Source: Candidatus Omnitrophota bacterium (lineage in GTDB: Bacteria > Omnitrophota > JAUWXU01). Taken from it: a stretch of DNA of 42,413 bases. The notes under the pieces were generated by a model. It was given only the letters and a program-made list of their open reading frames with translations. It searched no databases and was not told the DNA's origin. Location of the stretch: assembly GCA_034717435.1 (NCBI GenBank), contig JAYELI010000020.1, positions 1-42,413 of the forward strand, written 5' to 3'. The position numbers and the translations under genes were made by a program. This document shows positions 4,048 to 42,413 of this stretch, in pieces (the first letter of the stretch is position 1; each line of letters opens with the position of its first letter).

Positions 4048-4815
4048 TTATTTTTTTTCCTCCGTCAAGCCCAGGTATAAACTCATAAACGTGATCATAG
4101 CCACCAAACCGAAATAGGCATTGACTCCGCTGGCTAAGATTCCTCCAATCATCTGACGCTGAGAGACAGCTACGGGAACAAGCAGTATGCCCACTACAAC
4201 AGTCGCGCCAATAATCATCAGCATCATCAAGGCCAGGGTTCCCATGGCGCTCCCCAGAAATTTCCTGGCAAAACCTACGGATTTACGGACAGATTCAATA
4301 ATCCCGCATTCCTCGGCTACCAGAACATAGGGCGAATAGAAAAAGAGAATACTCACGCATGCTGTTATGATTCCGAGAATCATATAGATAAAGAAACCCA
4401 GGGACTTAAGAATCGTATTACCGATAACCCGGTCTGCTAAAGCAAGGGTGCCCTGGCAAAATATAACCAGCAGCCCTATTATCAGACCGATCAGCATGCC
4501 TAAACCAAGCAGGCGCCAGAAAAATTTCTTTCCTGAAGAAAATAAATTATTTAAACGAGTTGACCCTTTTTTGATTATATCCCTGACAGAACCCAAAAGC
4601 CCTGCCTGGACAAAAATACTTAAAAACAAAAATATTATGATAACCCCTATGGCCAGTGATGATTCACTTAAAGACGGAGAAACTCCCTCCTTTATGGATT
4701 TAAGCGGAAGGCCGATCAAATTTGAGAAAATATTAAGAAGAAACAGCACTCCGACTAAAACCCAATTTTTCCCGGCGAGCATAAAACCTTTTTTAATCGC
4801 TTCTTTTGTCCCCAT
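4048..4815 (-). CDS. Integral membrane protein of unknown function
   Basis: The 255-residue protein is almost wholly hydrophobic, with about six membrane segments (near residues 18-35, 53-75, 100-122, 137-165, 190-215, 225-248). It starts with AIKKGFMLAGKNWVLV, a pattern common in poorly characterised bacterial multi-pass proteins. A charged loop (IIKKGSTRLNNLFSSGKKFFWR) separates the first two segments from the rest. No catalytic motif is visible. It has its own promoter overlapping the recR end and leads into porC, so it may be the first gene of the por transcript; a role with the oxidoreductase is only guilt by association. Confidence 0.8.
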   Translation of the reverse strand: MGTKEAIKKGFMLAGKNWVLVGVLFLLNIFSNLIGLPLKSIKEGVSPSLSESSLAIGVIIIFLFLSIFVQAGLLGSVRDIIKKGSTRLNNLFSSGKKFFWRLLGLGMLIGLIIGLLVIFCQGTLALADRVIGNTILKSLGFFIYMILGIITACVSILFFYSPYVLVAEECGIIESVRKSVGFARKFLGSAMGTLALMMLMIIGATVVVGILLVPVAVSQRQMIGGILASGVNAYFGLVAMITFMSLYLGLTEEKK

Positions 4816-4839
4816 TTCCTACCCCCTTTTTTTCTTATT

Positions 4840-4868
4840 AAGTTACCAAAAAAACGGCTTGTTGTCAA
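4840..4868 (-). promoter_or_regulatory. Sigma70-type promoter ahead of the membrane protein and por operon
   Basis: On the minus strand TTGACA (4868-4863), a 17-base spacer and TAACTT (4845-4840) stand 24 bases before the ATG at 4815. The -35 box overlaps the recR stop codon. The -35 is perfect and the -10 fair. Confidence 0.6.
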
Positions 4869-5470
4869 GCATGGAGTTCTCCTCTGGCCTCCATTGCCTT
4901 ACTTAAGGTCGCCCGATCGGCATACTCCAGGTTACTGCCGACAGGAATACCGCGGGCGATACGGCTCACCCTTACCCCTAAAGGCTTGATGAGTTTGACC
5001 AAATAGAGCGCTGTGGACTCTCCGTTTGTGTTACAGTTGGTAGCGATTATGACTTCTTTAACGCCTCCTGAATTCACCCGCTCCAAAAGCTGGTTTATTG
5101 TTAATTCAGCCGGTCCCATTCCGTCTAACGGCGAAAGCACACCCAATAAAACATGATATACACCGTTAAAACTGCCCGTTTTTTCAATGGCCGCGATATC
5201 GCTAGGCTCCTCAACCACGCAAATAATAGATTTATCCCTTCCCCCGCCCCGGCAGATCCGGCAAATAGGAGCCTCGGAAAGATTATTACAGACCACACAA
5301 TAAGTTATCTTTTTCTTTACCTCGATTATTGACCGGGCAAGGGATTCTGCTTCCTGAACCGAGGATTTCAGGATATACAGGACTAATCTCTCAGCCGTCC
5401 TGGACCCTATTCCCGGGAACTTTGCCAGTTTTTTTATCAGCCCCTCTATTATCTGGTTATAACTAACCAC
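4865..5470 (-). CDS. recR: Recombination mediator protein RecR
   Basis: RecR helps load RecA at single-strand gaps and stalled forks, with RecO and usually RecF. The 201-residue protein has the full family layout: helix-hairpin-helix LAKFPGIGSRTAERL (about 16-30), zinc finger CVVCNNLSEAPICRIC (about 58-73), then the TOPRIM domain starting IICVVEEPSDIAAIE and containing GVLSPLDGMGP. Length matches the usual 198-200. It overlaps the dnaX 3' end by 8 bp. The ybaB/ebfC gene that usually separates dnaX from recR is not present. Confidence 0.96.
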   Translation of the reverse strand: MVSYNQIIEGLIKKLAKFPGIGSRTAERLVLYILKSSVQEAESLARSIIEVKKKITYCVVCNNLSEAPICRICRGGGRDKSIICVVEEPSDIAAIEKTGSFNGVYHVLLGVLSPLDGMGPAELTINQLLERVNSGGVKEVIIATNCNTNGESTALYLVKLIKPLGVRVSRIARGIPVGSNLEYADRATLSKAMEARGELHA

Positions 5471-7100
5471 TTCTTTTAATTATCCTTCCTTTAAATACTT
5501 CCAGGGCAGATTGAATAATCGGCGCGGAACTAGCCCGGGGGTTTTCAGGCAGTGCCTTATCAGCCAGGCTATCCACAGTAGTAATATCGATTTTTATCTT
5601 TTGACCCAACATGTGTTTGAAGCTGTTTTCAACCATGGTCCTATTTTTTATATCTTCCAAGCTTTCTTTGTGAAGCGGCATTCCGGCCGAAAAACCAAGG
5701 GTTATCACGTTGTTTTCTACCTTGACCGGTTCTCCTTCTGCTAAAAATGTCCCAACTGACATCTTTTGTTTTTTTACCCTTTCCAGCAATTCTGGCCAGA
5801 TTTGTTTAACTCCGGACAGATTAAGGCCGGTTTTTTTTGGGTCTTCTAATGGTTCATCAGGCAAGTTACCAACAACAGGGTTTTGAGTTACGGAATGTTC
5901 GGTCGCAGGATCTTCGGCCACAGGGTTTTCAGCCGCAGGCCGCTCAGCCGTCCCCCCTAATTTTGATTCCAGTTCGTTCAGCTTATCTAAAACTTCATTC
6001 AGAGAAGCAACTGTTCCCCTGCGAGCTATCTTTATTGCAGCTATCTCCAGGGCTATTCTTATCGTAACTCCTTTTTTTATCGACAGTTGGGTATTGGTTA
6101 GAAGATTAATAATGTAAACAAGCTCCTCAACAGAAAATGAATGCGACTGGGCAACGACCTGGCTGATAGATTCTGGAGGCAGGTTTATCAGCTTGGAAGG
6201 ATCATCGCTCAATTTGGCCATGACCAGATTACGAAAATAACCTACCAGGCCGGATAGAAACCGATCGCCGTTTCTGCCGCTATTCATCATCTGGCCGACT
6301 AGGTTTAACAAGCCCGGAGCATCTTTAGCAATCACTGCCTGAGTAAACTCAAACAGAATGCGCTGGTCAAATATACCCAGAACAGATATCACATCCTCGA
6401 AGCCGACCTCGCCTTCAGAAAAGCTGGCCACCTGGTCTAAAATGGATTCAGCGTCTCTCATGCTTCCCTGGGAGGAACGGGCTATATAAAATAGGGCATC
6501 GTCCCTGACCTTTAATTTTTCTCTGTCGATTATCTGTCTTAGCTTAGCCAGGATTTTGTCCATCGGAATTATTCTAAAATCAAACCTCTGGCACCTGGAA
6601 AGAATGGTTAAGGGAAGTTTGTAAGGCTGGGTGGTGGCAAAAATAAACTTTACGTGAGCAGGCGGCTCCTCTAAGGTCTTGAGAAGCGCATTAAACGCGT
6701 GTTCGGTCAACATATGAACTTCATCAATAATATATATTTTGAATTTTCCCTTAATCGGGGAAAATTTTACGTTTTCCCGCAAGTTCCTGATTTCATCTAT
6801 CCCCCGGTTAGAGGCCCCGTCTATTTCTAAGACATCCATGCTGATCGAAGAGGCTATTTCTTTGCAGGCCTCGCATTCCCCGCAGGGCGAAACAGTCGGG
6901 CCTTTTACGCAATTTAAAGCCTTGGCCAGGATCCGGGCAGCTGACGTCTTGCCCACCCCCCGCTGGCCGCAAAACAAATAAGCATGAGCCAGGCGCTCGG
7001 TCTTGATAGCATTTTTTAAAGTAGTAACAATATGCTCCTGGCCGATTATCTGGTCAAACGTTTGAGGTCTGAATTTCCTGGCTAATACAAGGTAAGACAT
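5463..7100 (-). CDS. dnaX: DNA polymerase III subunits gamma and tau
   Basis: Clamp-loader ATPase of the replicative polymerase. The 545-residue protein shows Walker A CGQRGVGKTS (about 44-53), zinc-binding cysteines CVKGPTVSPCGECEAC, Walker B IIDEVHML, sensor 1 IFATTQPYKLP and arginine-finger region SRCQRFDFR. Residues after about 370 form an acidic low-complexity linker (repeats of ENPVAEDPATE type) and a tau-like C-terminal domain. A phased slippery run near codons 421-423 could give a shorter gamma form. It lies 8 bp after the antiporter gene and overlaps recR. Start ATG at 7100 begins the usual MSYLVLARKFRPQTFDQ. Confidence 0.96.
   Translation of the reverse strand: MSYLVLARKFRPQTFDQIIGQEHIVTTLKNAIKTERLAHAYLFCGQRGVGKTSAARILAKALNCVKGPTVSPCGECEACKEIASSISMDVLEIDGASNRGIDEIRNLRENVKFSPIKGKFKIYIIDEVHMLTEHAFNALLKTLEEPPAHVKFIFATTQPYKLPLTILSRCQRFDFRIIPMDKILAKLRQIIDREKLKVRDDALFYIARSSQGSMRDAESILDQVASFSEGEVGFEDVISVLGIFDQRILFEFTQAVIAKDAPGLLNLVGQMMNSGRNGDRFLSGLVGYFRNLVMAKLSDDPSKLINLPPESISQVVAQSHSFSVEELVYIINLLTNTQLSIKKGVTIRIALEIAAIKIARRGTVASLNEVLDKLNELESKLGGTAERPAAENPVAEDPATEHSVTQNPVVGNLPDEPLEDPKKTGLNLSGVKQIWPELLERVKKQKMSVGTFLAEGEPVKVENNVITLGFSAGMPLHKESLEDIKNRTMVENSFKHMLGQKIKIDITTVDSLADKALPENPRASSAPIIQSALEVFKGRIIKRSG
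5832..5838 (-). other. Candidate -1 frameshift or slippage site in dnaX (A AAA AAA)
   Basis: Eight consecutive A residues (minus strand, 5838-5831) lie in the phase CCA AAA AAA ACC at codons 421-424, so the heptamer is A AAA AAA in the register used by E. coli dnaX (A AAA AAG). After a -1 shift the new frame reads three codons and meets TAA, giving about 426 residues, close to the 431 of E. coli gamma. No strong downstream hairpin is obvious. Transcriptional slippage, as in Thermus, is an alternative. Confidence 0.45.
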
Positions 7101-10829: not shown

Positions 10830-10891
10830 TCTTACGGGTTAGCTGTTGTTGTATGTGGTGGGTAAATATTGACGTTATGACGATTTTGGTT

Positions 10892-10926
10892 AGATTGCTT
10901 CGGGCACTGCGTGCCCTCGCAATGAC
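10892..10926 (+). repeat. Half copy of the GTCATTGCGAG/GAGATTGCTTC palindromic repeat
   Basis: It reads AGATTGCTTC, a perfect hairpin GGGCAC-TGC-GTGCCC (10902-10916), then CTCGCAATGAC. The two outer motifs are those that bound the right side of the GIY-YIG cassettes at 27997 and 28710. It sits 2 bases beyond the encoded CCA of tRNA-Ser(GGA), so it could also act as that transcript's 3' hairpin. Confidence 0.7.
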
Positions 10927-10928
10927 GA

Positions 10929-11020
<92 letters not shown>

Positions 11021-11029
11021 AATAAAAAC

Positions 11030-11053
11030 ATAATCCCGAAGTTTCGGAATTAT
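11030..11053. repeat. Hairpin between tadA and tRNA-Ser(GGA)
   Basis: ATAATCCCGAA (11030-11040) and TTCGGAATTAT (11043-11053) form an 11-bp stem with one mismatch and a 2-base loop. It covers the tadA stop codon. There is no T run, so it is not a classic terminator. Confidence 0.6.
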
Positions 11054-11532
11054 TTGTCTGAAGGAATAAAGAACATCTCCTGTCTTTTCTTCTTAAAGAA
11101 TTCCTTTAACAGCTGGCCGCTTTCTTCAGCCAAAACACCTTTTTTTACTTTTATCCTGTGATTTAATTTTTTATTACTAGTAATATCAAACACTGACCCG
11201 CAGGCACCGGTCTTGGGGTCTTCCGCCCCGTAAACCAGCCTCTTTACTCTGGCCAACACCAACGCGCCGGCGCACATTGCGCAAGGCTCAACCGTAACAT
11301 ACATCGTGCAATCATTAAGCCGCTCATTCCTTAGATAACCAGCAGCCTGGGTTAGGGCAATCATCTCTGCGTGGGCAGTTGGGTCTTTTAGCAATTTGAT
11401 CTGATTGTGGGCCCGACTGATGATTTTTCTGTTATAAACTATAACGGCGCCTATTGGAACTTCGTCTTTTTTAAAAGCCCTTCCGGCTTCCTTCAGCGCC
11501 TCGTCCATATATATATTATCTATCTTGCTCAC
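11050..11532 (-). CDS. tadA: tRNA-specific adenosine deaminase TadA
   Basis: Converts A34 of tRNA-Arg(ACG) to inosine so that it reads CGU, CGC and CGA. The 160-residue protein has the zinc deaminase motifs H54-A-E56 (DPTAHAEM) and P83-C84-A-M-C87, and ends with lysine-rich KKEFFKKKRQEM-type sequence. The start used is GTG at 11532; ATG at 11508 (MDEALKEAGRAFKK) is a possible alternative and neither has a strong ribosome binding site. Its substrate tRNA gene lies 94 bp upstream on the same strand. Confidence 0.95.
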   Translation of the reverse strand: MSKIDNIYMDEALKEAGRAFKKDEVPIGAVIVYNRKIISRAHNQIKLLKDPTAHAEMIALTQAAGYLRNERLNDCTMYVTVEPCAMCAGALVLARVKRLVYGAEDPKTGACGSVFDITSNKKLNHRIKVKKGVLAEESGQLLKEFFKKKRQEMFFIPSDK

Positions 11533-11549
11533 TTAGTAAACCCTTAGAA

Positions 11550-11588
11550 AGCACCGACAATTTGTCCTAATGGCAAATTGTCGGTGCT
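11550..11588. repeat. Perfect 15-bp inverted repeat between tRNA-Arg and tadA
   Basis: AGCACCGACAATTTG (11550-11564) is followed by 9 bases and its exact reverse complement (11574-11588). It lies 18 bases before the tadA start, in the expected leader of tadA or the 3' trailer of tRNA-Arg. No T run follows. Confidence 0.8.
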
Positions 11589-11625
11589 AATTCGAACATA
11601 TCCCGAAACTTCGGAATGATTTCAT

Positions 11626-11702
11626 TGGCGTGCCTGGAGGGACTTGAACCCCCGACACCCTGGTTCGTAGCCAGGTACTCTATCCAACTGAGTTACAGGC
11701 AC
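11626..11702 (-). tRNA. tRNA-Arg(ACG)
   Basis: Acceptor GTGCCTG/CAGGCAC, D arm with AACTCAGTTGGATAGAGT, anticodon stem CCTGG/CCAGG with loop CTACGAA (anticodon ACG), short variable loop, T arm GGGGGTTCAAGTCCCTC, discriminator G, encoded CCA. A34 is the substrate of TadA, encoded next to it. Confidence 0.95.
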
Positions 11703-11732
11703 TATTTTCATGGCACCAAAAAGCATATGCTT

Positions 11733-11815
11733 GCCACATACCATTCGCTTTGCTCAGGTATGTGGCATGAACCCGAGCAAAAATTTCGTAAGAAATTTTT
11801 TGTGAGTGGTTCATG
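11733..11815. repeat. Two hairpins in the tRNA-Arg / tRNA-Ser(CGA) spacer
   Basis: GCCACATACC (11733-11742) pairs exactly with GGTATGTGGC (11757-11766). Next, CATGAACC (11766-11773) pairs with GGTTCATG (11808-11815), enclosing AAAAATTTC-GTAA-GAAATTTTT (about 11780-11800). The second hairpin touches the CCA end of tRNA-Ser(CGA). They probably fold in the precursor RNA. Confidence 0.65.
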
Positions 11816-11905
11816 GCGGAGAGAGAGGGATTTGAACCCCCGAGCCTTTTTCAAGACTACTCGCTTTCGAGGCGAGCCGGATCAACCAGACTCTCGCATC
11901 TCTCC
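11814..11905 (-). tRNA. tRNA-Ser(CGA)
   Basis: Acceptor GGAGAGA/TCTCTCC, anticodon stem CTCGC/GCGAG with loop CTCGAAA (anticodon CGA, reads UCG), class II variable arm, T arm GGGGGTTCAAATCCCTC, discriminator G and encoded CCA. Confidence 0.95.
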
Positions 11906-11914
11906 AATGAGGAC

Positions 11915-11992
11915 ATAATTTACGAAAACTCTTCGAGTTTTCGTAAATTATAAGTCCGAATTGGATTCCGGACCCCGAAGGGGTTCGGAATC
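11915..11992. repeat. Two hairpins between the HEAT-repeat gene and tRNA-Ser(CGA)
   Basis: ATAATTTACGAAAACT (11915-11930), loop CTTCG, and its exact complement (11936-11951) make a perfect 16-bp stem. GATTCCGGACCCC (11964-11976), loop GAA, and GGGGTTCGGAATC (11980-11992) make a 13-bp stem with one G-T pair. They lie just after the HEAT gene's stop codon on the minus strand. Confidence 0.7.
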
Positions 11993-12013
11993 TTCTTCAT
12001 CACTCTTCAGTGC

Positions 12014-12844
12014 TTACTCCTCAATACTCTTAATAGCAGCCTTTGCGACCGTCCGCACATCGCTAAATTCATCTTTCAGCATCGGCTCAAGCAGGTTTAA
12101 GACAGACTTGTCTTTGATCCTAGCCAAGGCCTCAATCGTCTTTACTTTTATTTTTATGTTTGTTGTGTCTAATTTCGCCACCAGCACAGCCACGACTTCT
12201 TTATCCTTGAAACGGGACAACGCCTCGATCGCCTGGATAACCACGCTGCTGTTTACGTCGTTTAATCTTGCAATCAAGTCCGGAATGGCTGATTTATCAC
12301 TCATTATTGACAACGCCTCTGCTGCCTTCAGCCGGACGCCTGCGGATAGATCTGAAAGAGACGCGATGAAATCAGGAACAGCGCTCTGGTCTCTTATCTC
12401 GGTCAAGGAAGACAAAGCTGCGATCCTTATGTTGGCATTAACGTCTTTTAGTGCCGCTTTAAAAATATCAGCTGAATCATGAACCTCCATTGCGCCTAAA
12501 GCCCTGATCGACTCCAGCCGGATCCGCACCCTGGAACTGCTTGTCAACTCTCTGAGAACCGGAGCTGCCTCCCTGATCTCATTCTCTTTGATTATTTGAA
12601 TGACGCTGATTAATACTGATGTCTTGAGATAATCATCTTTTAAAGCGCCTGTTAATTCAGACGCTGCCCTCTGACCGGCTTGGATAAGATGTTTTTTGGC
12701 AACTACTCTTTTTTGGGAATCGGCTAATTCGTCGATCCACTGTTTAATTTTTTCATTCTCGCCGGCACATAAATAATCCGCTGACAACAATGAAAAAACC
12801 AAAGATACAACTGCTGTTAAAATAAAAAGTTTCTTGGTTTTCAT
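12014..12844 (-). CDS. Secreted or periplasmic HEAT-repeat protein
   Basis: The protein begins with a signal peptide (MKTKKLFILTAVVSLVFSLL, cleavage near SADYLCAG). The cysteine in that segment leaves a lipoprotein possible but the lipobox is poor. The rest is tandem HEAT/PBS-lyase-like helical repeats of about 31 residues, with units such as VRIRLESIRALGAM, ANIRIAALSSLTEI, AGVRLKAAEALSIM, SSVVIQAIEALSRF and IKIKVKTIEALARI. Such repeats bind proteins; no enzyme motif is seen. ATG at 12844 is preferred over the in-frame GTG at 12853 because GGGAGG sits 8 bases before it. It interrupts the serine tRNA cluster. Confidence 0.85.
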   Translation of the reverse strand: MKTKKLFILTAVVSLVFSLLSADYLCAGENEKIKQWIDELADSQKRVVAKKHLIQAGQRAASELTGALKDDYLKTSVLISVIQIIKENEIREAAPVLRELTSSSRVRIRLESIRALGAMEVHDSADIFKAALKDVNANIRIAALSSLTEIRDQSAVPDFIASLSDLSAGVRLKAAEALSIMSDKSAIPDLIARLNDVNSSVVIQAIEALSRFKDKEVVAVLVAKLDTTNIKIKVKTIEALARIKDKSVLNLLEPMLKDEFSDVRTVAKAAIKSIEE

Positions 12845-12934
12845 ATTACCCACCTCCCTTATTTTATTGGTTAATCTCTGCGAAGCCAGATAAGTTACGG
12901 AATCCTGAATTTATCGAAGGATGAGGTAATTTAT

Positions 12935-13029
12935 TGGCGGAGAGACCGGGATTCGAACCCGGGGATCCGGTTTAAATCAGATCAACCGCTTAGCAGGCGG
13001 CTCCTTTCAGCCAGCTCAGGCACCTCTCC
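12935..13029 (-). tRNA. tRNA-Ser(GCT)
   Basis: Acceptor GGAGAGG/TCTCTCC (one G-T pair), anticodon stem GCCGC/GCGGT with loop CTGCTAA (anticodon GCT, reads AGC and AGU), long variable arm, T arm CCCGGGTTCGAATCCCGG, discriminator G and encoded CCA. Confidence 0.95.
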
Positions 13030-13090
13030 ATAAAACATCTTGTGCATCTTTTTTTTAATCAATTCCTATGAAACATGAAACAGGGCAAGG

Positions 13091-13177
13091 CGGAGGAAAG
13101 AGGATTCGAACCCCTGGAGGCCTTACGGCCTCAACGGTTTTCAAGACCGCCGCATTCAACCACTCTGCCATTCCTCC
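13091..13177 (-). tRNA. tRNA-Ser(TGA)
   Basis: Acceptor GGAGGAA/TTCCTCC, anticodon stem GCGGT/ACCGT with loop CTTGAAA (anticodon TGA, reads UCA and UCG), variable arm GAGGCCGTAAGGCCTC, T arm with GGTTCGAATCC, discriminator G. Unlike the other tRNAs here it has no encoded CCA (CCT follows). It has a strong promoter directly upstream and is first in the cluster. Confidence 0.95.
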
Positions 13178-22385: not shown

Positions 22386-22599
22386 AAAAGTGCACACCTT
22401 AACCGAAATTAAAAATAATAACGCTAAAAAGGTCATTCTGAGGCCGAAGGCCGAAGAATCTCAGAAAACACGGTTTTATGGGAGATCCTTCGGTCGCCCT
22501 TCGGGAATACTCAGGACTTCCTTCGGTCGCTTACGCTCCCTCAGGATGACACCTATCTTAAAAAGAACAAGATTAAGGACTTAGGGAGTGTGCAGTTTT
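22386..22599 (+). repeat. MITE-like element, complete copy
   Basis: Non-coding unit bounded by imperfect terminal inverted repeats AAAAGTGCACACC (22386-22398) and the reverse complement of AAAACTGCACACTCC (22585-22599). Inside are palindromic stretches of the CATTCTGAG...GAAGAATCTC and GAGATCCTTCGG...CTCAGGATGAC kind. The first 125 bases recur at 42289-42413 with one difference. It fills the space where recF normally sits. Confidence 0.8.
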
Positions 22600-27835: not shown

Positions 27836-27894
27836 TGTTTTACGTGAAAATATTCTAACTGAAACATTTTGAAAAAATTGTTTCACGATAAACA
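27836..27894. promoter_or_regulatory. parS-like palindromes after the jag gene
   Basis: TGTTTTACGTGAAAAT (27836-27851) matches the parS consensus TGTTTCACGTGAAACA at 13 of 16; TGTTTCACGATAAACA (27879-27894) matches at 14 of 16 and lies in a longer palindrome AAATTGTTT...AAACAATTT. A half site TGAAACA lies between. They are candidate ParB sites 1.5 kb from parA and parB. Confidence 0.5.
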
Positions 27895-27996
27895 ATTTTG
27901 TAACGTGTTGAAATAAACAGGGATACAGCGTAGGTGTTTTTTCGCTGGGGTTGTAGGTTACAAATTACAAGTTACAGGCCGTAGGTTTTTACTTTC

Positions 27997-28447
27997 GTCA
28001 TTGCGAGGCTGGCGGAGCCAGTCGAAGCAATCTCATTTAAGGAGATTACGTCGGTCGCTCCGAAAATTTAGGGTTTCTTCCAATGAATGACAAAAGGGGC
28101 GAAAATGATTCGGCAACAAGGATATTTTTATTTAATGACGAATAAAACAGACACGGTTATCTATGCCGGTGTTACCAGCGAGTTGCAAAAGAGGGCTTAT
28201 GAACACAAACAAAAGACAATAGAGGGATTTACCAAGAAATACAAGATTAATAAACTGGTTTATTATGAAGTATTTGATGATATAGAAAATGCGATTTTAC
28301 GCGAGAAACAAATTAAAGCAGGCTCTAGGCGAAAAAAGATAGATTTGATCAAAAGCGTGAATGCGGAGTTTAAAGACTTATACGGCGAACTTTGAGATTG
28401 CTTCGTCGTCCTTGACATCAAAGATGTCAAGGGCTCCTCGCAATGAC
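27997..28447 (+). mobile_element. GIY-YIG cassette bounded by inverted palindromic repeats, copy 1
   Basis: The left end reads GTCATTGCGAG (27997-28007) then GAAGCAATCTC (28024-28034). The right end reads GAGATTGCTTC (28394-28404) then CTCGCAATGAC (28437-28447), the exact inverse. The GIY-YIG gene fills the middle and its stop codon overlaps the right repeat. A 10-bp hairpin CCTTGACATC-AAA-GATGTCAAGG lies inside the right end. The mobile nature is inferred from structure. Confidence 0.6.
28105..28395 (+). CDS. Small GIY-YIG nuclease domain protein, copy 1
   Basis: The 96-residue protein is a single GIY-YIG domain of the URI/UPF0213-like type: YFYLMTNKTDTVIYAGVTSELQKRAYEHK holds the two tyrosine motifs in variant form (YFYL, IYAGV), then the conserved arginine and tyrosine of LQKRAYEHK and the glutamate region AILREKQIKAGSRRKK. 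ATG at 28105 follows AGGGG at 6 bases; an in-frame ATG at 28087 is less likely. The family cuts DNA; the target here is unknown. It is enclosed by inverted repeats and duplicated at 28818. Confidence 0.88.
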   Translation: MIRQQGYFYLMTNKTDTVIYAGVTSELQKRAYEHKQKTIEGFTKKYKINKLVYYEVFDDIENAILREKQIKAGSRRKKIDLIKSVNAEFKDLYGEL

Positions 28448-28558
28448 GATGAAGGACGATCGCTCGCAATGACGATGAAGGACGATCACTTGCAATGACG
28501 ATGAAGGACGATCGCTCGCAATGACGATGAAGGACGATCGCTCGCAATGACGAGGAGA
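28439..28558 (+). repeat. 26-bp tandem repeats, array 1
   Basis: Four head-to-tail 26-bp units (28439, 28465, 28491, 28517) of the type CGCAATGACGATGAAGGACG plus ATCGCT, and a partial fifth. The unit starts with the end motif of the GIY-YIG cassette, so the array seems to be an expansion of that end. There are no spacers. Confidence 0.9.
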
Positions 28559-28591
28559 AGCCGGTACTTGCAATGTCAGAAGGGAAAAAAT

Positions 28592-28607
28592 TGTTTCACG
28601 ATAAACA
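28592..28607. promoter_or_regulatory. parS-like palindrome, second copy
   Basis: TGTTTCACGATAAACA, identical to 27879-27894, carried by the second duplication unit. Confidence 0.45.
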
Positions 28608-28709
28608 ATTTTGTAACGTGTTGAAATAAAAAGGGATACAGCGTAGGTGTTTTTTCGCTGGGGTTGTAGGTTACAAATTACAAGTTACAGGCCGTAGGTT
28701 TTTACTTTC

Positions 28710-29160
28710 GTCATTGCGAGGCTGGCGGAGCCAGTCGAAGCAATCTCATTTAAGGAGATTACGTCGGTCGCTCCGAAAATTTAGGGTTTCTTCCAATGAA
28801 TGACAAAAGGGGCGAAAATGATTCGGCAACAAGGATATTTTTATTTAATGACGAATAAAACAGACACGGTTATCTATGCCGGTGTTACCAGCGAGTTGCA
28901 AAAGAGGGCTTATGAACACAAACAAAAGACAATAGAGGGATTTACCAAGAAATACAAGATTAATAAACTGGTTTATTATGAAGTATTTGATGATATAGAA
29001 AATGCGATTTTACGCGAGAAACAAATTAAAGCAGGCTCTAGGCGAAAAAAGATAGATTTGATCAAAAGCCTGAATGCGGAGTTTAAAGACTTATACGGCG
29101 AACTTTGAGATTGCTTCGTCGTCCTTGACATCAAAGATGTCAAGGGCTCCTCGCAATGAC
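28710..29160 (+). mobile_element. GIY-YIG cassette, copy 2
   Basis: Same structure as copy 1: GTCATTGCGAG at 28710, CTCGCAATGAC ending at 29160, inner GAAGCAATCTC and GAGATTGCTTC in inverse. It arose with copy 1 by the tandem duplication, not by separate insertion, since the flanks are duplicated too. Confidence 0.6.
28818..29108 (+). CDS. Small GIY-YIG nuclease domain protein, copy 2
   Basis: Identical to copy 1 except for one residue (valine GTG changed to leucine CTG in IKSLNAEF, near the C-terminus). The same AGGGG site precedes the ATG. The intact second copy with almost no change shows a recent duplication and gives no sign of decay. Confidence 0.88.
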   Translation: MIRQQGYFYLMTNKTDTVIYAGVTSELQKRAYEHKQKTIEGFTKKYKINKLVYYEVFDDIENAILREKQIKAGSRRKKIDLIKSLNAEFKDLYGEL

Positions 29161-29297
29161 GATGAAGGACGATCACTCGCAATGACGATGAAGGACGATC
29201 GCTCGCAATGACGATGAAGGACGATCGCTCGCAATGACGATGAAGGACGATCGCTCGCAATGACGAGGAAGGACGATTGCTCGCAATGACGAGGAGA
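29152..29297 (+). repeat. 26-bp tandem repeats, array 2
   Basis: Five 26-bp units (29152, 29178, 29204, 29230, 29256) and a partial sixth; one more unit than array 1. Apart from this array and the duplicated leader, the 299 bases between the second GIY-YIG gene and parA hold no gene. Confidence 0.9.
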
Positions 29298-29330
29298 AGC
29301 CGGTACTTGCAATGTCAGAAGGGAAAAAAT

Positions 29331-29346
29331 TGTTTCACGATAAACA
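29331..29346. promoter_or_regulatory. parS-like palindrome in the parA leader
   Basis: TGTTTCACGATAAACA, 62 bases before the parA ATG, is probably the original copy from which the duplicated ones derive. It could serve as a ParB site or as an operator for parAB. Confidence 0.5.
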
Positions 29347-29407
29347 ATTTTGTAACGTGTTGAAATAAACAGGGATACAGCGTAGGTGTTTTTTCGCTGG
29401 GGCTTAT

Positions 29408-37676: not shown

Positions 37677-40600
37677 TCAAACCTTTTTATTTTCATCTTT
37701 ATTTTTTCCTTTGACTGGTTGACCGGTGGACCGGCTGACCGGCTGACTAATCTCATACCACCGCCCCGGTCCCAATGGTCCGTGGGCTTGTAAAAGTTTT
37801 TTGTCCAGCAGTTGTTTCAGGTCGCGCGCTGCCGTGGGGGTAGAGACGTTAAACAATCCGGCATACTGCTTGCGGGTTATTTTGTTGATGGTTTTTAGTT
37901 TTTCTAAGACTTCTGTTTGCCGCAGATTTAATTCCTCTGTCTGGGGCGGCGGTTCAGGCTTAGGTTTGACTTCAGGCTTAGCCTCAATTTTGGCCTCAGA
38001 TTTAATCTCAGGCTTAGCCTCAACCTCAGGCTTAACCTCCTCGGGTTTTTCTTCGGTGAGTTTTGGTTTTATCCGTTCAGCCACAGTTAGATACAGAGCA
38101 GGAATTATCACCAGGGTTAAAAAAGTAGCCGAGGTTAAGCCGCCGATTACGGTCAGGGCTAAAGGCGCGCGCAGTTCTGCGCCTTCTCCGATGCCCAGGG
38201 CTAAAGGAGTGAGGCCTAAGACGGTTGTGAGAGAGGTCATCAATATTGGCCTGAGCCGGGTCTTGCTGGCCAGGATTACCGCCTCTTTTGGCTCGTGGCC
38301 TTGTTTTCTCATCCGGTTGATAAAATCAATTAGTACTATTCCGTTGTTAACCACGATCCCGCCAAGCATAATTATGCCCAGGTAGGCAACCACGCTAAGA
38401 GGAGTGCGGGTAATAAAAAGAATAAGACTTACGCCGATCAGGGAAAGGGGGACAGTAAACATTATAATAAACGGCTGCCAGAGTGATTCAAACTCCGCAG
38501 CCATAATCATATAAACCAGAACAAAAGCCAGGATTAAAGCAAATGCCAGGCTCTGAAACGACTCTGACATTTTTTGTTGTTCCCCGGCAAAGCGAAAGGA
38601 GTAATCCTGTTTAAAAAAAGGAAATTTTTCTCTGGTTGAATCTAATACTGCGCTGATTTCGTTAGTTACCTTGCCTAAAGGCCGGTTAAATATATTGGCA
38701 GTAACCAATATTGTTCGCTGTTGGCCGACCCGCCTGATTTCAGTGGGTCCGGTACCCTTGGTCAGGTAGGCGACCTCTGAAAGAGGTATGTTCATTGCCA
38801 GAGGTGAATGGATCAACAGCCTTCTTAACATACTCATGTCACTGCGGTCTTCGGGCCGCAGACGGACGCGGATATCTATTTCTTCCCCGTCTTTTTCCTT
38901 AAATTTTGTAGCCACATAGCCCTTAAGCGCAACCTGGGCAGTAAGCGCAATGTCCCGCACCGAAAGCCCGTAAAGCGAGGCCCGGTCTTTGATGATATGA
39001 AGTTTTGTTTCCGGGCTGGATAAGACAAGGCTGTTCTTAACCCCGTATACCCCTTTTATTTTGCATATCTTTTGTTGAACTGCCTTGGAGATGTCGGTCA
39101 GGCGTTCAAGATTTGGGCCGCTGACTTCCACGACGATCGGCGCCCCTTCTTCTAAAGTAGTGCTTAATGATGATTCCTGGGCAATGTATTCGATCTGGCC
39201 GCCTTGCAGATCCTGGTGCCGGAGATTATTTTTGAGATACTGGATCACCTCTTCGGTTGAAAGCCGCATCCCTTTCTTAAAGGACAGCTTTTTCAGGTTA
39301 ACCATGACCTGGGCTTGGTGCGAGCCCATGGTCTGCAGGGTTGCTTCTGCTGAAGCCTTTTCTTCGCTCGAACCGATATTTATGGTTACGTTTTTGATTT
39401 CTTTAAGCTTAAGAAGCAGCTGCTCAATCTTGGTTGCCACCTGGTTGGTGACGCTTAAGCGGGTTCCCGGAGCCATATCCACCTTGACAATAAATTGCCG
39501 TTGGTCAACGCTGGGCAAAAACCGGCGCTCCTGTTTAGCCAATATCACCAGGCTTATTAAAAAGGCTGCAAAGACCACTGCAATAATAAACAATTTGCCG
39601 GAGAGCAGGCCGGAGATAAAATCGCCGTAATCCTCGGTCCATTTATTCAATAGCCCTTTACTGTCATTGCGAATTCCGCGAAGTCCCGAGCGAAGCGAGG
39701 GGAAGGGACGAAGCAATCTCAAAAAACGAGATTGCTTCGTCCCTTTTGCTCCCGGCAACGACGACGAACGGAATTGGCGCCGGCCCAAAGAAATCAACAC
39801 AGGCACCAGAGAAATAGCGATAACTATGGACATCAATAAAGAAAAGGTTATGGTCATCGAAAGCTGTTTAAATATCTGTCCGGCAATTCCGGTTACAAAG
39901 GCAAACGGTATAAATACCGCTACAGTAGTCAGGGTTGAGCCGATAATCGGGCCGGTCATTTCGCCTGCCCCGTCAATACAGGCCTGGGACAGGCCCTTGT
40001 CCATTTGACGGTGCCGAAAGATGTTTTCAATTACTACGACCGCATTATCAACAAGCATTCCTACCCCAAGGGCAAGGCCGCCTAAGGACATCATGTTGAG
40101 GTTTATCTTGTTGAAATACATCAGGCAAAAAGTGGCCATGATCGAAATTGGCATCGAGACAGTAATTACTACTGAGGAACGCACCTGACGCAGGAAAAAC
40201 AGAAGGACGAAGAAAGCCAGTATTCCTCCCTGGATCGCTGCATTGCGCACATTAGCGATTGCCGCCCGGATAAATTGAGACTGGTCGTAAGTTACCTCGA
40301 TCTTAATACCCGGGGGGAGTTTCTCAGAGAGCAGTTTTTGGATTTCGGTCTTTACTTTTTTAACCACGTTCATAGTGTTAGTGCCGGACTGCTTCCTGAT
40401 CACCAGGGAGATGCTGTCTTTTCCGTTGTAGCGGGAGATGCTCGTTTTTTCCTTTACTGTATCGTGGACCAGAGCAACGTCTTTAATATATACCAGCCGC
40501 CGGCCTTTCTTTTCCTTTTCTTCCTTTTCTTTGGTTGTTTCGGCTTCCTCTTCAGGCAGGTCAAGCGCGGTGGGTGTTTCCTGGATTTCGCTGATATCCT

Positions 40601-41300
40601 GGTATTCGCCCATTGTCCGGATCAGGTATTCGTAGAAGCTTTCTTTTATTGTTCCGGCCGGATAGTTAAGGTTGGCTTTTTTCAGGCTGTCTACGATGGA
40701 GATGATTGAAATCTGCGACGCCCGCAGCCGGGGCTGGTCGATTTCAACCACGATTTCCCGTTCAGCCCCGCCGCTGATGATTACCGAGGCTACACCCTCA
40801 GCCTTTTCAATCGCTTCTTTGATGTATTTCCGGCAAGTCTCCCGCAGTTCCAGAGAAGGCATTGGCCCGGTTACGGCCAGGTTCATAATCGGCAGGTCAA
40901 AAGGATTATACTTCATTACAATCGGCTCTTCTGCTTCGCGGGGAAGCCGTTCTTTGATCAGGTCAATTTTTTCCCGCACGTTTAAGGCGGCAAAGTCCAT
41001 ATTTGTTCCCCAGTTGAATTCAACGATTACCAGGGACAGACCTTCTTTAGAGATTGAACTGATTCTTTTGACGTTATTGACCGTGCCGGTCGCCTCTTCG
41101 ATAATTTTGGTGATCAGGCTTTCTATTTCTTCCGGGGCGGCGTTTTCATAGGAGGTGACTACGGTGATCTGGGGGTAAGTGATGGAGGGAAACAGCTCCT
41201 GGGGGAGTTTGCTCCAGGAGATAAACCCTAAAAGCAGAACCGCAGTAAAAACCATTATCGCGGTAACCGGCCTGTTTACAGAGAGTTTTGATATGTTCAT
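37677..41300 (-). CDS. RND efflux pump permease with C-terminal winged-helix domain
   Basis: From ATG 41300 (MNISKLSVNRPVTAIMVF) the protein has 1207 residues; an in-frame start at 41357 would only add translated linker repeats. Residues 1-1060 are an AcrB-type pump (TM4 GVGMLVDNAVVVIENIF, TM10 GIVVNNGIVLIDF). Two features are unusual. Residues about 510-547 between TM6 and TM7 are translated from an inserted palindromic repeat (RSSSLPGAKGTKQSRF and following). After TM12 a KPE-rich linker (about 1065-1115) leads to a winged helix-turn-helix-like domain (about 1118-1182: RQTEVLEKLKTINKITRKQY, NVSTPTAARDLKQLLDKK). The domain would face the cytoplasm. The pump and adaptor genes downstream form one operon. 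Confidence 0.92.
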   Translation of the reverse strand: MNISKLSVNRPVTAIMVFTAVLLLGFISWSKLPQELFPSITYPQITVVTSYENAAPEEIESLITKIIEEATGTVNNVKRISSISKEGLSLVIVEFNWGTNMDFAALNVREKIDLIKERLPREAEEPIVMKYNPFDLPIMNLAVTGPMPSLELRETCRKYIKEAIEKAEGVASVIISGGAEREIVVEIDQPRLRASQISIISIVDSLKKANLNYPAGTIKESFYEYLIRTMGEYQDISEIQETPTALDLPEEEAETTKEKEEKEKKGRRLVYIKDVALVHDTVKEKTSISRYNGKDSISLVIRKQSGTNTMNVVKKVKTEIQKLLSEKLPPGIKIEVTYDQSQFIRAAIANVRNAAIQGGILAFFVLLFFLRQVRSSVVITVSMPISIMATFCLMYFNKINLNMMSLGGLALGVGMLVDNAVVVIENIFRHRQMDKGLSQACIDGAGEMTGPIIGSTLTTVAVFIPFAFVTGIAGQIFKQLSMTITFSLLMSIVIAISLVPVLISLGRRQFRSSSLPGAKGTKQSRFLRLLRPFPSLRSGLRGIRNDSKGLLNKWTEDYGDFISGLLSGKLFIIAVVFAAFLISLVILAKQERRFLPSVDQRQFIVKVDMAPGTRLSVTNQVATKIEQLLLKLKEIKNVTINIGSSEEKASAEATLQTMGSHQAQVMVNLKKLSFKKGMRLSTEEVIQYLKNNLRHQDLQGGQIEYIAQESSLSTTLEEGAPIVVEVSGPNLERLTDISKAVQQKICKIKGVYGVKNSLVLSSPETKLHIIKDRASLYGLSVRDIALTAQVALKGYVATKFKEKDGEEIDIRVRLRPEDRSDMSMLRRLLIHSPLAMNIPLSEVAYLTKGTGPTEIRRVGQQRTILVTANIFNRPLGKVTNEISAVLDSTREKFPFFKQDYSFRFAGEQQKMSESFQSLAFALILAFVLVYMIMAAEFESLWQPFIIMFTVPLSLIGVSLILFITRTPLSVVAYLGIIMLGGIVVNNGIVLIDFINRMRKQGHEPKEAVILASKTRLRPILMTSLTTVLGLTPLALGIGEGAELRAPLALTVIGGLTSATFLTLVIIPALYLTVAERIKPKLTEEKPEEVKPEVEAKPEIKSEAKIEAKPEVKPKPEPPPQTEELNLRQTEVLEKLKTINKITRKQYAGLFNVSTPTAARDLKQLLDKKLLQAHGPLGPGRWYEISQPVSRSTGQPVKGKNKDENKKV
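39663..39762. mobile_element. Gene-less GTCATTGCGA/GAGATTGCTTC palindromic element inside the RND gene
   Basis: GTCATTGCGA (39663) and GAAGCAATCTC (39710-39720) are followed by a 7-base loop AAAAAAC, then GAGATTGCTTC (39728-39738) and a worn CCGGCAACGAC (39752-39762). The core GGGACGAAGCAATCTC (39705-39720) pairs perfectly over 16 bp with 39728-39743. The end motifs equal those of the GIY-YIG cassettes. It stays open in the pump frame. Confidence 0.75.
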
Positions 41301-41302
41301 AT

Positions 41303-41345
41303 TAGTCTGCCAGTCGTCCGGTCTGCCAGTCGTCCGGTCTGGTTG
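41303..41345. repeat. Short GTCCGGTC/CCAGTC repeats upstream of the RND operon
   Basis: The phrase AGTCTGCCAGTCGTCCGGTC is followed by TGCCAGTCGTCCGGTCTGG, a roughly 16-bp unit in tandem. Related words occur before the second pump gene (37617-37635), in the 3' end of the first (37712-37750, GACCGGCTGACCGGCTGAC) and inside the second (36335-36360). Confidence 0.65.
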
Positions 41346-41365
41346 ACTGGGCGACAATTAAAAAC

Positions 41366-42288: not shown

Positions 42289-42413
42289 AAAAGTGCGCAC
42301 CTTAACCGAAATTAAAAATAATAACGCTAAAAAGGTCATTCTGAGGCCGAAGGCCGAAGAATCTCAGAAAACACGGTTTTATGGGAGATCCTTCGGTCGC
42401 CCTTCGGGAATAC
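42289..42413 (+). repeat. MITE-like element, second copy, cut by the window end
   Basis: Starts with the terminal repeat AAAAGTGCGCACC and matches 22386-22510 over 125 bases with a single difference (G for A at 42297). The right end lies outside the window. Confidence 0.85.

Follow-up and report, generated by a model that had tools for sequence, protein, structure and literature searches.

A GIY-YIG nuclease gene between inverted CGTC-tagged REP hairpins, a candidate for a small mobile REP-nuclease element in bacteria

Repetitive extragenic palindromic (REP) sequences of the CGTC type were named in a 2013 survey (Di Nocera et al., PMC3733652), which defined them by an unpaired CGTC tag, a stem starting with AT, a short tail and frequent head-to-head dimers, and which stated that they lack a dedicated transposase. 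Genes for REP-associated tyrosine transposases (RAYTs) or other transposases flanked by CGTC REPs were sought in that survey and only fortuitous cases were found, and DNA can insert between the partners of a REP dimer (PMC3733652). Here we describe GIY-YIG nuclease genes that lie between inverted CGTC-tagged REP hairpins in a 42,413-bp stretch of a Candidatus Omnitrophota contig (JAYELI010000020.1; this whole stretch is called the window below), together with their relatives in other bacteria. The sequence features indicate that this unit is probably a small mobile REP-nuclease element that resembles the RAYT-REP systems in its working and uses an unrelated Slx1-like nuclease. What is new is the pairing of a GIY-YIG enzyme with a CGTC REP; each partner was already known separately. 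A literature search, with subscription papers and preprints outside its range, found no report linking GIY-YIG proteins with REPs, the Rickettsia palindromic elements (RPE) or dRS3.

REP-bracketed GIY-YIG genes in the window and in other genomes

Two genes in the window, each encoding a 102-amino-acid GIY-YIG protein (28087-28395 and 28800-29108), lie between inverted CGTC-tagged REP hairpins with the tags facing outward. The repeats around each gene have the form CGTC-ATTGC-...-GCAAT-CTCA, inverted, and the features of the locus are as follows.

27996-28035, forward strand: left REP of copy 1, CGTC tag outward, CGTCATTGCGAGGCTGGCGGAGCCAGTCGAAGCAATCTCA; hairpin -7.8 kcal/mol, z -1.8
28087-28395, forward strand: GIY-YIG nuclease gene, copy 1 (102 amino acids); Pfam PF01541, E 9e-15; AlphaFold pLDDT 92, Slx1-like/UPF0213 fold
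28394-28448, reverse strand: right REP of copy 1, inverted, overlapping the stop codon; z -2.8
28437-28553, no strand assigned: 26-bp tandem array (REP tip plus 15 bp of outer flank), 4.5 copies, right of cassette 1
28709-28748, forward strand: left REP of copy 2, from sequence motifs
28800-29108, forward strand: GIY-YIG nuclease gene, copy 2 (protein 99% identical), from sequence comparison and Pfam
29107-29161, reverse strand: right REP of copy 2, from sequence motifs
29150-29292, no strand assigned: 26-bp tandem array (REP tip plus 15 bp of outer flank), 5.5 copies, right of cassette 2
27871-27950, 28584-28663 and 29323-29402, forward strand: 80-bp direct repeat R bracketing each cassette, three copies, the last directly before parA (29408)

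The motifs GTCATTGCGAG and GAAGCAATCTC are located on the forward strand at 27997 and 28024 and again at 28710 and 28737, with their inverses at 28394 and 28437 and at 29107 and 29150. Allowing up to two mismatches, GTCATTGCGAG occurs 25 times against 7.4 expected, a number reached in 0 of 100 shuffles, and GAAGCAATCTC, with up to one mismatch, occurs seven times against 0.9 expected. The flanking inverted repeats proposed in the initial annotation were thus confirmed and lie above chance, and so was the overlap of the right repeat, GAGATTGCTTC, with the TGA stop codon of gene copy 1 (28393-28395). Both genes that it listed are bracketed, but they are held by one 713-bp tandem duplication (27871-28583 and 28584-29322), of which the first 80 bp recur a third time at 29323-29402. 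The two cassettes are copies of one tandem repeat and count as one example, not as two independent ones.

The only Pfam domain found in the protein is PF01541 (GIY-YIG), and the expected catalytic residues Y15, Y26, R36 and E73 are invariant in 35 sequences. No NCBIfam model scored above its cut-off; the weak profile matches were to TIGR01453, below its cut-off, and to homing endonucleases in PHROG. The AlphaFold model best matched UPF0213 protein BH0048, followed by Slx1, whose substrates are branched DNA, and UvrC, and this predicted Slx1-like fold fits, but does not prove, a hairpin or cruciform substrate.

In order to examine the bracketing in related genomes, REPs were detected as GTCAT[T/C] with a 5-bp perfect stem within 60 bases, tag outward and no more than 250 bp from the gene. 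Among the 58 phylum relatives searched, 48 had some GIY-YIG match. The close homologues (29 distinct sequences, 41-100% identity) carried REPs on both sides in 25 cases and on at least one side in 28, whereas none of about 20 distant GIY-YIG genes (27-39% identity) from the same genomes was REP-flanked. A wider scan with one genome per species yielded 80 loci from about 29 phylum-level groups. REPs were present on both sides at 50 of these loci and on at least one side at 73, and both-sided cases occurred in 20 of the groups. Only 2 of 539 control open reading frames (ORFs) of at least 100 amino acids from the same DNA were bracketed (odds ratio about 450, Fisher p = 6e-50). Inspection of missed loci revealed variant tags or stems (GTCGTTGCGAG, GTCATATCGAG and GTCACCACCGG) and inward-facing REPs, and the bracketing figure is therefore conservative.

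The initial annotation had read the locus as an autonomous element with gene-less derivatives in which a GIY-YIG nuclease takes the place of a transposase, and had named two outcomes that would speak against it, namely repeats equally common at unrelated genes and homologues in sister genomes without repeats at both ends. Neither outcome was observed, as the counts above indicate, and the proposed layout is supported.

Matches in a plasmid collection came from Sphingobium, Sinorhizobium, Azospirillum, Novosphingobium and Neisseria, and most of those inspected were also bracketed; the same genera were named as CGTC hosts in the 2013 survey (PMC3733652). No homologue of the subfamily was found among 50,697 phage records. 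In a metagenome-assembled Legionella genome (that of L122; L212-L217), at least six subfamily members lie at different places, some with stop codons and most with weak or altered REPs.

Repeat R contains a parS-like palindrome, TTGTTTCACGATAAACAA, just before parA, and could have arisen as a long duplication upon insertion or be left over from tandem duplication. The copy number of the 26-bp array differs between the two cassettes, and comparable short tip duplications were seen at L007, L009, L015, L019, L041, L071 and L141. Tandem duplication of the REP tip was considered as a scar of cutting, but its frequency at cassette ends (16 of 187) compared with other REPs (10 of 156) was not convincing; a stricter hand count of short tip units gave 11 versus 2 (p = 0.04, post hoc).

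Matching of enzyme and REP type

The five stem letters were common to the left and right REP at 59 of 79 loci, with 31.5 expected and a maximum of 44 in 5,000 shuffles. REP types differed by enzyme lineage and included ATTGC-GAG, ATTCT-GAG, ATCCT-GAG, ATTCC-CGCG, ATTCC-GGCG and others, and paralogues within one genome each had their own REP type (G023, G011, G043, G045 and Maritalea).

In this subfamily the catalytic Glu is closely followed by a loop, K-x-[G/W]-x-R-x-[K/W]-K. Trp at loop position 2 pairs with C at stem letter 4 (counts 28/1/5/63), and Trp at loop position 6 pairs with REPs whose palindrome runs on without a mismatch (22/2/1/77). On the best tree, with its weak branches counted too, independent contrasts agreed in 11 of 12 cases for position 2 (p = 0.006) and in 8 of 8 for position 6 (p = 0.008), while restriction to supported branches of this tree of 87 columns gave one starred pair and was under-powered. 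The correspondence was noticed after looking at the data, so that its p values describe fit and test no prior hypothesis. Enzyme lineage and loop residues track the letters of the REP, a matching for which chance cannot account.

Mobility, REP load and alternative explanations

The cassette is present or absent at orthologous loci of Chryseobacterium. Of 30 species, 10 have it between the barnase and barstar genes, and 9 have it in the gap separating a DinB-like gene from Sua5; elsewhere the same gaps are 24-50 bp long and cassette-free (L174, L175 and L184), hold a bare REP remnant (L164) or hold other DNA. Sites L174 and L175 carry no REP, and therefore whole units also occur at sites without one. 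At L183, a decayed gene lies between intact REPs. A barnase-like gene is parted from its barstar-like partner by the cassette at L106, L088 and L120 (around 4300-5800), and an unrelated ORF occupies this place in other species. In the phylum of the window, the GIY-YIG gene was found at none of the 29 parA loci of relatives, and the window copy is therefore regarded as a local insertion.

Carriers also contain more REPs. Across 120 Chryseobacterium species, the 35 intact carriers had a median of 9 REPs of the cassette type, compared with a median of 1 in the 79 non-carriers, 36 of which had none (p = 2e-12, or p = 6e-9 minus the cassette's own two, species relatedness not being corrected for). 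In the phylum of the window, carriers of the matching lineage had a median of 43 REPs and others a median of 0 (p = 2e-6). Two gene-less occurrences are located in the window itself.

39663-39762, no strand assigned: gene-less REP dimer in an AcrB-type gene (37677-41357, reverse strand); fold z -5.4
10891-10927, reverse strand: single intact REP adjoining tRNA-Ser; hairpin -9.2 kcal/mol, z -3.1

The initial annotation had placed the same end motifs, without a gene, at the first of these sites. A REP pair is indeed present there, but its left tip has one mismatch and its right tip is decayed; it is in frame in the AcrB-type gene, with about 34 amino acids inserted between the two transporter halves. 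What had been taken for a half unit at 10892-10926 is one intact REP. A tRNA gene cluster at 10929-13177 has five members, including four tRNA-Ser genes that differ in anticodon. The tip of a different CGTC REP type, GTCATTCTGAG, occurs twice (22432-22442 and 42335-42345), and a second REP family may be present in the genome. No Rfam family was found.

In the proposed element, two inverted CGTC-tagged REP hairpins would enclose the gene for a single-domain, Slx1-like GIY-YIG nuclease. This enzyme would recognise the hairpin type flanking its own gene and would cut there, acting either on a cruciform or on single-stranded DNA of the replication fork, after which repair or template switching would copy the REP-gene-REP unit, or gene-less REP pairs, to new places; gene-less REPs and REP pairs would be its non-autonomous derivatives. 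We infer the binding, the cutting and the copying route, and that the enzyme rather than another factor is the agent. Among candidates for the missing enzyme of CGTC REPs, the GIY-YIG nuclease is at present the strongest. It is fairly likely that it serves as their dedicated mobilising enzyme across bacteria, including the in-gene repeats of Rickettsia and that of the window's AcrB-type gene, moving them through hairpin-specific cuts and their repair by the host, and that loop residues and REP letters form a readable code.

Several observations weigh against this proposal. GIY-YIG chemistry in other known members is hydrolytic, and strand joining would therefore need host repair. Empty sites, which the initial annotation had suggested seeking in close strains, do exist among Chryseobacterium species, but no nucleotide-exact filled and empty pair was found in this comparison, leaving target duplication and junction undefined. 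Some genomes have many matching REPs without the gene (63 in G006 and 25 in G112), and therefore REPs must be able to persist after the gene is lost or be moved by something else. A 200-kb sample of Chryseobacterium G058 contained no REPs of the type other than the cassette's own, and in a 200-kb comparison of G058, G162 and G112 REPs of the type were absent besides the cassette. About one third of the distant loci had no REP on one side under the strict detector.

Further candidates for junctions or independent insertions were rejected. In the search for target duplications, the identical REP pairs of G056 all proved to lie in one larger repeat, which holds the 88-bp pair and is itself present in about a dozen copies (L223-L234). 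In Chryseobacterium G087 (L276-L294), another palindromic repeat, GGCGCAAAGATTTTATC..GATAAAAT ... GAAAATCTTTGATTTTCTTGCGCC, harbours single REPs and also occurs free of them. For a Chryseobacterium host palindrome that exists with and without a REP, variation of the interior prevented the junctions from being fixed. Indels near the gene in Rhizobium resemble products of recombination between REPs and are not decisive.

Alternatively, the protein might regulate its own expression by binding the REP hairpins of its gene or mRNA, with the REPs spread by something else. The REPs are close to the gene (medians of 31 bp upstream and 21 bp downstream), the right REP can overlap the stop codon, and binding alone would yield the match between loop and REP. 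Autoregulation leaves unexplained, however, why carrier genomes have more gene-less REPs of the same type and why several loci either have or lack the complete REP-gene-REP unit, and we consider it unlikely. A housekeeping nuclease that removes REP cruciforms and is kept nearby by selection, with host processes moving the repeats, would agree with the nearest solved structures (UPF0213/BH0048, Slx1 and UvrC) and with the DNA repair role predicted for bacterial single-domain GIY-YIG proteins (PMC1564403). The gene instead has the habits of a selfish element, being patchy within a genus, decayed beside intact REPs at L183, and present as several lineages in one genome, each with its own REPs, which makes a housekeeping role quite improbable.

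Mobilisation in trans by a known transposase, a RAYT or that of another insertion sequence, with the GIY-YIG gene as a passenger, would be in line with G056, where the REP pair lies inside a longer repeat and another element can therefore carry REPs. Since transposase genes flanked by CGTC REPs were fortuitous cases in PMC3733652, and since the GIY-YIG gene was the sole gene between the REPs at the loci read, this explanation is very unlikely. That REP pairs are hot spots of insertion or recombination, in one of which this gene family sits by accident, is strongly disfavoured and hardly credible, even though some of these genomes have many REP pairs and insertion between dimer partners is known (PMC3733652), because so few other ORFs were bracketed and lineage and loop match the REP type beyond chance.

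Comparison with known systems

CGTC REPs occur in many phyla and enter coding genes, and their enzyme was left open by the 2013 survey (PMC3733652). With a nuclease of 95-100 amino acids recurring between matching REPs, its loop tracking the REP letters, this question is now directly testable at the bench. If the proposed element is real, it would represent a class of mobile element moving by hairpin-specific cutting plus host repair, REP biology would gain an enzyme class, many genes annotated just as 'GIY-YIG nuclease family protein' would be explained, and a small hairpin-specific nuclease with a perhaps changeable specificity loop would become available.

The protein belongs to the GIY-YIG superfamily, having the domain and the conserved Tyr, Tyr, Arg and Glu. 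Like the free-standing GIY-YIG homing endonucleases (phage Seg-type and group I intron), it has the GIY-YIG catalytic core and is likely selfish; it differs from them in having about 95 residues, no DNA-binding or NUMOD domain and no intron or intein, and in being flanked by REPs. It shares fold and size with the Slx1-like/UPF0213 single-domain nucleases (1zg2, 1ywl and Slx1), structure-specific cutting being a feature of Slx1, whereas in the same genomes the distant single-domain GIY-YIG genes have no REPs beside them, and the subfamily described here has a distinct loop. The terminal inverted REPs recall the ends of an insertion sequence, but the gene between them encodes a nuclease, and no target duplication could be defined.

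The CGTC REPs of PMC3733652, which include the Rickettsia RPE and those of Neisseria and Alphaproteobacteria, have the same CGTC tag, AT-starting stem, tail, head-to-head dimers and units inside genes; the differences are the GIY-YIG gene as a recurrent partner and the variant tags and stems in further phyla. The RAYT-REP and REPIN systems ('REPtrons', with GTAG-tagged REPs and Y1 HUH transposases) also consist of a small gene flanked by inverted tagged hairpins, with many gene-less single or paired hairpins elsewhere and with matching of enzyme and repeat type. Here, in contrast, the enzyme belongs to the GIY-YIG nucleases, lacks any HUH or tyrosine transposase domain and is expected to have a hydrolytic chemistry, and the tags are CGTC, TGTC or CCTC, not GTAG, the flanking REPs reading CGTC or TGTC and then AT[T/C]. 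In conclusion, the unit would work like RAYT-REP, yet both features that define that family, an HUH enzyme and GTAG tags, are absent from it.
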